Assembly: GCA_025356015.1 (NCBI GenBank)
Contig: JANXYO010000120.1
Coordinates: 1 to 53,928, forward strand
Reading direction: 5' to 3'
DNA length: 53,928 nt
DNA from: Spirochaetaceae bacterium
GTDB lineage: Bacteria; Spirochaetota; Spirochaetia; Treponematales; Rectinemataceae
Positions 46,357 to 50,558 of this stretch are shown here, piece by piece (positions within the stretch are counted from its first letter, which is position 1; each line of letters opens with the position of its first letter). The notes under the pieces were generated by a model, which did not search any database, was not told where the DNA came from, and saw nothing but the letters and a program-made list of their open reading frames with translations. The position numbers and the translations under genes are program-made.

Positions 46357-46776
46357 TTACCTCAGCACCAGGTTGACCTGGCCGAACTCGAAATTGACCG
46401 CCTGGGCCATGATGGTGTACATGAGCTGGTTCTGCACGCTCGCCATCATCTCCTCCTCGGGGTCGACGTTGTTGCCGTTGTTCTTGGCCGTCGTCAGGTA
46501 GTCGAGGACCCGCCTTGGCTCGACGCTCCGGTAGTCGGTCACAGTCCTGTTCGGGATGTGCTTGGGGTCGGTCACGGCGAGCTCGAGGGCCGGCACCTGC
46601 TTCTCCGAGTCCATGGCCTTCTTGAGGTTCGCCTCGAAGTTGACGACCGAGCGCTTGAAATTCGGCACACCCGCGTTCGCTATATTGTTGGAAATGACGT
46701 TCCTCCGCAGGACCGCTACGTCCATCGACTTGTGGAGGAGGTCGACCGTCTTTCCAAACGACGTTCCCTCGAACAT
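46357..46776 (-). CDS. flgB: FlgB, proximal rod protein
   Basis: 139 residues. RNVISNNIANAGVPNFKRS near the N-terminus is the axial motif. AAGGGAG lies nine bases before the ATG. First gene of the flagellar block proper; a 6-bp stem-loop (46803-46821) and the repeat-rich 608-bp gap lie upstream. Confidence 0.95.
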   Translation of the reverse strand: MFEGTSFGKTVDLLHKSMDVAVLRRNVISNNIANAGVPNFKRSVVNFEANLKKAMDSEKQVPALELAVTDPKHIPNRTVTDYRSVEPRRVLDYLTTAKNNGNNVDPEEEMMASVQNQLMYTIMAQAVNFEFGQVNLVLR

Positions 46777-46900
46777 CTAATTGCGCTCCCTTGGGGATCC
46801 TGGTGGACTTGTTCTGTCCACGTCCCTGCATACATTTTCGGTCCAGGTCCCGGCCACGATTAGCGAAACTTCGGGACAGGGTCCCACGGGGAAGAATTTC

Positions 46901-47348
46901 ACCGCGGAGAGCGCGGAGGGCGCGGAGGAAGAAAGAAAAGGGATGGAGGGGAATCGCTTTCTTTCTGCGGACCCTGTACCCATGCTCTCCCTCCTCTTCC
47001 TTCGTGCCGGTGAAAATCATCGGAAGCCGGGTGATTTTCACCGAGCGCCTGGTGATTTCCACGCGCCAGCCGATGATTCTCACTCATGGCCGTGTGATTC
47101 CCACATGTGCTCGCGTGATTTTCACGCGGCCCCCGGTGATTTCCACGCAAGGCTCCGTGATTCCCACCCATCGCTCCGTGATCTTCACGCACCGTCCTGT
47201 GATTTCCACTCGGCCTTCGGTGATTTTCACTCAAAGCACAGTGATTCCCACTCACCGCTTAAGTGATTTCCGCTCAACCCTCAGTGATTTTCACGCAACT
47301 CTCTCTCCCCTCAGTGCTCTCCGTGGCTTAGCTGCGTGTCTCCGCGGC
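46901..47348. repeat. Arm-bounded repeat element 3 (hslU/flgB gap), carrying the array
   Basis: 448 bp. The left arm 46901-46928 is three copies of a 9-bp unit CGCGGAGRG; the right arm is degenerate, but 47339-47348 pairs with 46901-46910 at 9 of 10. It is larger than the other three because it encloses the 21-bp array. A purine tract AGAAAGAAAAG and its pyrimidine complement (~46929-46975) form another potential stem. Confidence 0.6.
47010..47294. repeat. 14-unit phased array of an 11-bp near-palindrome every 21 bp
   Basis: Units begin at 47010, 47031, 47052, 47073, 47094, 47115, 47136, 47157, 47178, 47199, 47220, 47241, 47263 and 47284: period exactly 21 bp except one 22. Consensus GTGATTYYCAC (full palindrome GTGA-TTT-TCAC when YY is TT). 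The 10-bp spacers share no consensus. The two Y positions cycle TT, TC, (CT,) CC through much of the array. See findings. Confidence 0.9.
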
Positions 47349-47384
47349 GTGCCTTTCTCTTCTCTTCGCTTCTCTATCTCATTC

Positions 47385-48821
47385 CTACAGTATGTACCTG
47401 CTCAGGTCCTGCCTCTCGGTGAAGTCCTTGAACCTCTCGTCGACATAGGCCACGTCGATGGTGACCTTGGCCCCCGCCATGGAGGGCGCCTCGAAGCTGA
47501 GGTCCTCAAGGAGCCTTTCGAGCACTGTCTGGAGGCGCCGGGCACCGATGTTCTCCGTGGCCGTGTTCGCGGCCGCGGCTATCTCGGCTATCCTGGTGAC
47601 CGATCCAGGCGTGAACTCAAGCTCGACCTCCTCGGCCGAGAGGAGCATCTTGTACTGGAACACCAGGGCGTTCTTGGGCTCGGTCAGGATGCGCTCGAAG
47701 TCCTTGCCCGTGAGTGCCTCGAGCTCGACCCTGATGGGAAAGCGGCCCTGGAGCTCGGGAATCAGGTCCTGGGGCTTCGAGACGTTGAAGGCGCCCGCTG
47801 CGATGAAGAGGATCTTCGAGGTGTCGACGGGGCCCCACTTCGTCGTGACGGTCGAGCCCTCGACTATGGGGAGGATGTCCCTCTGGACCCCCTCGCGGGA
47901 GACATCGACACCTCCGGCTCCCCTACCCTCGCGGTTCGCTATCTTGTCAATCTCGTCGATGAAGATGATTCCCGTCTCCTGGACACGACGCCGGGCTTCC
48001 TCGGCCGCCCGCTCCGGGTCGATGAGCTTGTCGAGCTCCTCGGCGGCGAGGATCCGCTTGGCCTCGACGACGCTGACCGATTTCTTCTTGCGCTTGCCAC
48101 CGAAGAGGTTCGAGAGGCCCCCAAGGGCGACCTCCATCTCCTCCATCTGGTTGCCCGAGAAGATCTCGATCGCCGGCCCGCCGCCCTGGACTGTGATCTC
48201 GACCTCACGGGCATCGAGCTTGCCGGAGCGCAGGAGGGCGCGGAACTTCTCGCGGGAATCGCCGCCTGAGCCCGGCTGGCCGCTCCCCGAGCCTGGAGCG
48301 GCTCCAAAGCCCTCGGGGCCTATGAAGGTGGCCTGGGAGGGACCTATGGGCTCGTCCGCCCGCTTTATTCCCGGCAGGAGGAGGTCGAGGAGGCGCTCCT
48401 CGGCCCTGCGCTCAGCCTCCTCCTTCACTCCCGTCTGCATCTCGCTCTTGACCATCGCGAGGCCTGCGGCCATGAGGTCGCGCACCATCGACTCGACGTC
48501 GCGGCCGACATAGCCCACCTCGGTGTACTTGGTGGCCTCGACCTTGATGAAGGGCGCGGCGCAGAGTTTCGCCAGGCGGCGGGCTATCTCGGTCTTGCCG
48601 ACCCCCGTGGGCCCGATCATGAGGATGTTCTTGGGGGCGATCTCGTCGCGGATGTCGGCCGGGAGACGCTGGCGCCGCAGGCGGTTGCGCAGGGCCACGG
48701 CGACCGCGCGCTTGGCCTTGTCCTGTCCGACGATGTAGCGGTCGAGCTCCTCGACGATGCGCCGGGGGGTCATCGATGCGAAGTCGCCCTTCGGATCGGG
48801 GGCCGCAAGCTCCTCGATCAT
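47385..48821 (-). CDS. hslU: HslU, ATPase subunit of the HslUV protease
   Basis: 478 residues. AAA+ Walker A GPTGVGKTE (~53-61) and Walker B IIFIDEIDKI; an inserted I domain of ~150 residues including GSGSGQPGSGGDS; C-terminal tail ends SRYIL, matching the C-terminal peptide that docks in HslV. It unfolds substrates for HslV. ATGA overlap with hslV. Confidence 0.95.
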   Translation of the reverse strand: MIEELAAPDPKGDFASMTPRRIVEELDRYIVGQDKAKRAVAVALRNRLRRQRLPADIRDEIAPKNILMIGPTGVGKTEIARRLAKLCAAPFIKVEATKYTEVGYVGRDVESMVRDLMAAGLAMVKSEMQTGVKEEAERRAEERLLDLLLPGIKRADEPIGPSQATFIGPEGFGAAPGSGSGQPGSGGDSREKFRALLRSGKLDAREVEITVQGGGPAIEIFSGNQMEEMEVALGGLSNLFGGKRKKKSVSVVEAKRILAAEELDKLIDPERAAEEARRRVQETGIIFIDEIDKIANREGRGAGGVDVSREGVQRDILPIVEGSTVTTKWGPVDTSKILFIAAGAFNVSKPQDLIPELQGRFPIRVELEALTGKDFERILTEPKNALVFQYKMLLSAEEVELEFTPGSVTRIAEIAAAANTATENIGARRLQTVLERLLEDLSFEAPSMAGAKVTIDVAYVDERFKDFTERQDLSRYIL

Positions 48822-49388: not shown

Positions 49389-49538
49389 AACCGCAGAGAC
49401 GCGGAGTCGCAGAGGAATCCCAGAGAGAGGGGCTGACCGGGACAGAGTCGCCAGGCAAGAATTCCACAACTTCCGGCACCCAGGTCAAAACCCCGGAACC
49501 AGTTCCTCTTGTCTCTGCGCCTCTGCGTCTCTGCGGTT
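49389..49538. repeat. Arm-bounded repeat element 4 (xerC/hslV gap)
   Basis: 150 bp. Left arm 49389-49414 and the reverse complement of the right arm 49513-49538 agree at 24 of 26 bases. The arm is again CGCAGAG-type 8-bp units. The interior contains a TTCCGG/CCGGAA stem but no gene. Confidence 0.8.
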
Positions 49539-49568
49539 CCATCTTGTATTTGCCCTGTTTGTGCCTTC

Positions 49569-50558
49569 TCATGACTTGCCCCCGTGGGGGTGGGCCTGAT
49601 CGTAGACCTTCCTGAGCCTTTCCATGTCGACATGGGCGTAGATCTGCGTGGTAGAGACGCTCGAGTGGCCGAGCAGCTCCTGCACCACCCTGATGTCGGC
49701 CCCGTGGCCGACGAGGTGCGTGGCGAAGCTGTGCCTGAAGGTGTGGGGGGAGATGCGCTTGCCAATGCCCGCCCGGCTCGCGTAGCCCTCGATGAGCCAC
49801 TCGATGCCGCGTTCGCTCAGCCTCCCTCCCTTCGAGTTGAGGAAAAACCAGGGTGTTCCGCCCGAACTCCTTGTCCTGGTCGTCTCCCCAGGCTCTGGCA
49901 TGGCCCTGGGCCCGCCCCCCGCTTTGAGGGCCGCGCCGGTACGGTTGAGCAGGGCATCCCTGAAGGGCAGGTAGGCAAAGAGGGCTGCGCGTGCCTTGTC
50001 GGCGAGGAAGACCACCCTTTCCTTCGAACCCTTGCCTATGACCCTCGCAGTGCCGCCCTCAAGGTCGATCCGGTCCAGACGGAGGGCAGAGGTCTCGGCG
50101 ACGCGGCAACCGGTGCTGTACAGGAACTCGAGGATGGCCCTGTCCCGGGTGCCCCTGAAGTCACCGCCGTCGGCGAGAGAGATGAAGGCGGCGGCCTCGT
50201 CCTCGAAGAGGAAGCGGGGCAGGTTCCTGCGCACGCCAAAGCCCTCGACGTCCCTCGATGGATCGACGGCCAGGGATCCGAATCGGACCAGGTAGCGGTA
50301 GTATCCGCGCAGGGCGGAGAGAGCCCTGTTCACGCTCGATGTCGCCTTGCCCTCGGCTATCAGGCTTGCCGCGAAGGACCTGAGGTCGTTCGCCTCGGCC
50401 TCGTCAGCGCCACGCTCCCCGAGGAAGTCCGAGTAGCGGACGAGATCCTCGCGGTAGGAGTCGACGGTGCGCGGCGAGAGCCCGCGCACCGCCTGGAGGT
50501 AGGCGAGGTAAGCCTCGATCCCCAGGCGCGAGCCCCGCTCTTCAATCGGCCTGCGCAT
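49569..50558 (-). CDS. xerC: Tyrosine recombinase, XerC/CodV-type
   Basis: 329 residues, overlapping the topA 3' end by 17 bp. N-terminal SAM-like core-binding domain (~12-100). Catalytic residues: Arg in GCRVAE, Lys in [19 protein letters not shown] and Tyr in TTQIYAHV. An extra ~25 residues rich in Gly, Pro, Thr and Arg occur between the Lys hairpin and the HxxR box. It resolves chromosome dimers at dif; in other bacteria codV also precedes hslVU. Confidence 0.9.

Follow-up and report, generated by a model that had tools for sequence, protein, structure and literature searches.

Phased GTG-N5-CAC arrays at 21-bp spacing in a Spirochaetaceae genome, possibly a stranded and enlarged transposon-type end beside the flagellar operon

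The closest described systems to the array reported here are the ends of IS21 elements, in which direct repeats stand at a spacing of 23 bp, each made up of two conserved regions with about 10 less conserved bp between them (PMC10122671). IS21 ends measured here on plasmids and in relatives possess 2-5 units at 21-24 bp, and several of them show TCAC...GAAAT-type blocks (L357, L359, L360 and L362), for example TGCTCACGATC...GTGAAAT in L357 and GGTCAC...CGGAAT in L362. In ends of the IS21/Mu/Tn7 type, blocks one helical turn apart are bound by transposase subunits that possess two helix-turn-helix domains. Short dyads of the GTGA...TCAC type are also characteristic of matS, SlmA and parS sites, which are found as dispersed single sites or as clusters without 21-bp phasing. 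Short tandem intergenic units are, on the other hand, typical of bacterial minisatellites (VNTRs). A literature search for a named class of arrays such as the one described below found none.

We analyzed a stretch of 53,928 nucleotides from a Spirochaetaceae bacterium, hereafter the window, in which an array occupies positions 47010-47294 and consists of 13 direct GTGATTYYCAC units and one inverted unit (Table 1). The inverted unit is the first one and overlaps the right end of an adjoining inverted-repeat element. Twelve of the 13 steps between units are exactly 21 bp long and one is 22 bp long. With one mismatch at most allowed, the motif was matched 16 times in the whole window, while 100 dinucleotide-shuffled windows gave 2.0 matches on average and six at maximum, so that 16 matches were never reached. 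The GTGATTYYCAC array and its 21-bp phasing, both proposed in the preliminary description made from the sequence, are thus confirmed, as is its list of the bases at the two Y positions, and a chance origin was not reproduced by shuffling. The higher-order trend of 63 bp that it had reported did not hold (p = 0.52 for motif similarity between units a multiple of three apart).

Table 1. Location of the array and of neighboring features in the window.
Feature	Position	Strand	Remarks
Direct units (13)	47031..47294	+	core GTGATTYYCAC of 11 bp, spacers of 10 bp
Starts of direct units 1-7	47031, 47052, 47073, 47094, 47115, 47136, 47157	+	
Starts of direct units 8-13	47178, 47199, 47220, 47241, 47263, 47284	+	
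Inverted first unit	47010..47020	-	ATGATTTTCAC on the - strand
hslU	47385..48821	-	AAA+ ATPase of HslVU protease
flgB	46357..46776	-	flagellar rod protein
Promoter-like element	46834..46863	-	CTAA-N18-CCGAAAAT, upstream of flgB; found by eye on the sequences
MITE-like inverted-repeat element	46896..47017	.	probable exact ends
Second arm of the same repeat family	about 47315..47352	.	other side of array; CTCTCCGTGG...CTCCGCGGCGTGCC, matches L026

The core and the spacers differ strongly in conservation. Mean pairwise identity is 0.87 in the 11-bp core and 0.41 in the 10-bp spacers, and the permutation test of this gap gave p = 5e-5. When each spacer was shuffled the expected spacer identity was 0.29 +/- 0.015, which means that the earlier claim of dissimilar spacers holds only approximately: a weak likeness is present, with a consensus of approximately [GT]C[AG]nC(G)CYCn. 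Spacer columns 15 and 21 are fully random, column 12 is nearly so, and the remainder are intermediate. All 13 deviations within the core are transitions, which is the pattern that constraint on the core would produce, while the spacers contain 24 transitions and 33 transversions. If any rotation of the unit is allowed, the best contiguous block of the window array scores 1.10 bits (p = 0.0007), in contrast to 0.2-0.5 bits in control 21-bp tandem arrays from the same genome, from the genome G370 and from viral contigs, one viral control array reaching p = 0.048. We are highly confident both in the existence of the array and in a constraint on its core. Because its core is conserved and its spacers are near random, unlike in the control tandem arrays examined, the window array is not an ordinary MINISATELLITE.

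For periodicity, 1.37 Mb of the 4.17 Mb window genome (G000) was sampled in stretches. A second array is located at G000:C36:71913-72206 (L196 11913-12206); it looks non-coding and contains 14 units with a 21-bp period. Its GTG and CA(C) arms are conserved, its five central bases and spacers are variable, and the contiguous 11-bp block alone is not significant (p = 0.10). In both arrays no columns are more strongly conserved than those of the GTG/CAC arms (p about 0.001 in each). Since only the dyad is common to the two arrays, the shared feature is GTG-N5-CAC every 21 bp and not the full 11-mer. Like the window array, the second array occupies an intercistronic position immediately 3' of a gene.

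Outside these two loci the pattern is rare. The comparison with related spirochaetes, which the preliminary description had proposed, was made as a phylum-wide search for three GTG-N5-CAC units in 393 Spirochaetota genomes; non-coding arrays were present in the window genome only, at the two loci described above, and elsewhere only a few chance or coding matches were found. The exact 11-mer occurs three more times in the genome without any genome-wide excess, which indicates that there is no regulon of single sites, and the sampled DNA of this genome has no surplus of motif pairs at 21 bp. In 2.9 million viral contigs, three GTG-N5-CAC units at 21 bp were matched 21 times, and in none of these matches did a large number of units coincide with core conservation and nearly random spacers. 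The exact three-unit pattern was not found in GTDB genome_contigs; the exact two-unit pattern with a variable gap had many matches, mostly other elements among the matches listed, and in the DNA examined of 118 contigs with two exact units (variable spacing, among the matches listed) no IstB-like gene was found. Paired GTGAWWTTCAC is rare in Desulfobacterota relatives (3 of 395 genomes) and has no common neighbor there. An Rfam search gave nothing credible, and blastn of the array or the gap against plasmids and phages gave nothing useful.

Several other repeats were observed in the course of these searches. In L081, from Desulfobacterota, a GTGATTTTCAC pair at 21 bp adjoins CAGGATATACAGGATGATCAGGATT and GGCACAAAGGCACAAAG repeats, a company similar to that of the window array. 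In the window genome an array of 12-13 units of 21 bp (TTCCGCGCGGTGCACYGCCA; L197 12300-12560, G000:C66) directly follows the stop codon of a peptidase-like gene and has no block structure. In two contigs of G370 (C94 and C99; L251 and L260) a gene resembling, by eye, the TIGR01212/YhcC radical-SAM family is split at the contig ends by more than 60 in-frame units of 21 bp, which encode heptads such as AGTGNSLAGAAQAVS; the assembly breaks inside this array. Two Bacilli MAGs (L144 and L149) contain tandem repeats of 34-36 bp, GGTGATTCCCACC..., with a terminator-like hairpin and a small ORF after them, a sequence layout like that of a type III toxin-antitoxin (ToxIN-like) locus.

The array is situated just 3' of the hslU stop codon, and flgB is the first gene of flgB-flgC-fliE-fliF-fliG-fliH. 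The promoter-like element preceding flgB is probably of the sigma-28 type. Several relatives possess a similar CTAA...CCGA(T/A)A sequence (by eye) upstream of flgB, and the insertion lies upstream of this element. In most relatives of other genera the gap between hslU and flgB is only 70-130 bp long, while insertions of repeat elements are present in the window genome and in G001 and G003, in all three between the hslU stop and the promoter-like element. In G001 and G003 the inserted DNA is an inverted-repeat element whose arms are of the GAGGCACAGAGG or CCTCCGCGC type; the insertion in the window genome is composed of the MITE-like element, the array and a further arm of the same type. The MITE-like element begins with ATTTCACCG(CGGAG)... 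and ends with ...CGGTGAAAAT, and GCGGAG arms recur elsewhere in the genome. The array itself is absent from this gap in all 10 related genomes of other genera in which the flgB locus was found. The insertions in three genomes and the short gap in most relatives indicate that the gap is insertion-prone and the array lineage-specific. Neither an intrinsic terminator nor a sigma-70 promoter was found within the array, and GC skew shows no clear switch at it. Its RNA folding z-scores (-5.3 and -6.1 for the two strands) are not taken as evidence, because any tandem of near-palindromes is expected to give such values. A further intergenic repeat element is present upstream of hslV (window 49400-49640).

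If the window array is read as CAC-N10-GTG, it has the same anatomy as IS21 ends: direct repeats within the 21-24 bp range and conserved blocks flanking about 10 more variable bp. The claim that no named element of this kind exists has therefore to be qualified, as IS21 ends share this anatomy, although the array does not fit the IS21 definition. An IS21 end has 2-5 units and an opposite, inverted end, whereas the window array has 13 direct units and a single inverted one, the C36 array has 14, and no terminal tips or opposite end of a transposon were recognised at the array. IS21 elements carry istA and istB, whereas neither is present at the window locus, where the neighbors are hslU and flgB, and istB was not found in the assembled genome, in which the PF01695 profile scores DnaA only; IS copies are frequently missing from MAG assemblies. 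No IS21 with the core of the window array was present in a small sample consisting of 20 IstB loci of relatives and the plasmid IS21 loci read. The absence of IstB from the genome, the absence of an IS21 with this core and the number of units, which exceeds 2-5, are the reasons why we do not file the window array as IS21. By analogy, it may work like a transposase-site array and may be derived from one.

In the same genome, a 23-bp array with GTGGCAG...CCGGAAT (L292 637-829, G000:C41) consists of two direct units, an inverted one and four direct ones. Arrays of this type occur next to istA in Trichlorobacter lovleyi and next to istB both in Methylomonas and in the relative G009. Judged by its sequence, L292 is an IS21-type end array, with no genes found beside it and no istB in the assembly. 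A 22-bp array, TCAACTTGGAAA with 7-10 variable bp (L213 11672-11803, G000:C6), is located between divergent genes, scores 1.00 bits in the block test (p = 0.001) and has the same block structure as IS21-type ends; from these features it looks like a transposon end. A search of viral contigs for CAACTTGGAAA pairs, bearing on the origin of L213, found none.

Our preferred, although tentative, explanation, to which we give a little less than an even chance, is that the window array is a stranded and enlarged transposon-type end which serves as a site array for an oligomerising DNA-binding protein. Each GTG-N5-CAC dyad would be a site for such a sequence-specific protein, and since successive sites are 21 bp, that is two helical turns, apart, the bound subunits would align on one face of the DNA and could oligomerise. 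The CAC and GTG half-sites about 10 variable bp apart, repeated directly every 21 bp, would then correspond to the anatomy of IS21/Mu/Tn7-type terminal arrays. Such an end array would have been stranded without its transposase, enlarged, and would have entered the gap that separates hslU from the flgB promoter and is prone to insertions. Of the roles suggested in the preliminary description, the best supported one is that of a phased array on which a DNA-binding protein lands, with a core conserved far above the spacers and a second array of the same dyad and period. When all readings that imply such a protein are taken together, i.e. when the smaller chances of a resident function or of iterons are added to that of the stranded end, the array is, or was, fairly probably a protein-binding array.

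It is possible, but we find it doubtful, that the array is a minisatellite that evolves neutrally or almost so, in which replication slippage within the debris of repeat elements multiplied a 21-bp unit and homogenisation or chance produced the block. The surroundings, a MITE-like inverted repeat and an insertion hotspot, are suitable for such an origin; the genome has other tandem arrays of 12-23 bp, and the G370 array shows that a 21-bp unit can exceed 60 copies. The window array resembles VNTRs in its short tandem intergenic units, and the residual spacer consensus is what a common ancestral unit would predict. However, divergence in a plain minisatellite would be spread over all columns, whereas here conservation is confined to an 11-bp block which the 21-bp control arrays lack, and the second locus keeps the same dyad. 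Furthermore, the similarity of two spacers does not change significantly with their separation in the array (p = 0.10), and recent duplication of blocks is therefore not indicated. Adjacent spacers resemble each other barely more than spacers far apart, and for this reason a mobile minisatellite, in the sense of plain slippage, is not favored.

A resident function, in which the array would be a landing site for a regulator or for a partition or nucleoid protein, perhaps acting on the hslVU-flgB region, is unlikely in our estimate. The core looks long maintained next to near-random spacers, and two such arrays are present in the chromosome, both in the same position relative to a gene. The dyad can also be written as GTGA-N3-TCAC, which resembles the sites of nucleoid proteins in style. 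The window array shares short GTGA...TCAC-type dyads with matS, SlmA and parS sites but, going by what is generally known of them, differs from them in half-site spacing and in its 21-bp phasing. The absence of the array between hslU and flgB in 10 related genomes of other genera and the lack of three-unit non-coding arrays in other sampled Spirochaetota speak against a resident role, as does the fact that relatives keep the promoter-like flgB element without the array. With three other exact copies of the motif, which is not enriched elsewhere, and no array at this locus in the relatives, the partition or nucleoid site proposed earlier is not supported. Nor is a site for a flagellar regulator. 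A genus-specific version, according to which the two phased arrays of 13-14 units nucleate a filament of a DNA-binding protein unrelated to any transposon, has a slightly smaller chance still.

That an integrated phage or plasmid left behind the iterons of its replication origin is very improbable. Repeats of GTGATTTTCAC in direct orientation at 21-24 bp were indeed found in Lachnospiraceae and phage contigs (L058, L106, L331 and L333), but these are embedded in replication-initiator-like ORFs and their units are alike including the spacers, whereas no initiator or phage gene was recognised among the ORFs neighboring the window array. L073 likewise has iteron-like GTGATTTTCAC repeats at 21-24 bp in an ORF resembling a replication initiator. 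A decayed or real protein-coding heptad repeat, examined because a unit of 21 bp is seven codons long and the columns of greatest randomness (12, 15 and 21) all fall in the same codon phase (p = 0.024, post hoc), is hardly credible and was rejected: three frames have 0-1 stops, but no frame is continuous across the 22-bp step, ATT is present in nearly every unit as opposed to 4% of Ile codons in the genes of the window, GC3 is 0.51-0.66 across the six frames as opposed to 0.89 in genes, and there is no Pfam family match, so the decayed coding repeat named earlier as a possible refutation was not upheld.

Should the window array be a transposase-site array that was stranded and enlarged, it would show that the ends of transposons, once the transposase is lost, can expand into long protein-binding arrays in the chromosome, and conservation of core versus spacers would be a simple test for telling arrays of this sort apart from ordinary minisatellites. 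As a resident landing site, it would instead represent an unrecognised type of chromosomal binding array beside the flagellar operon.
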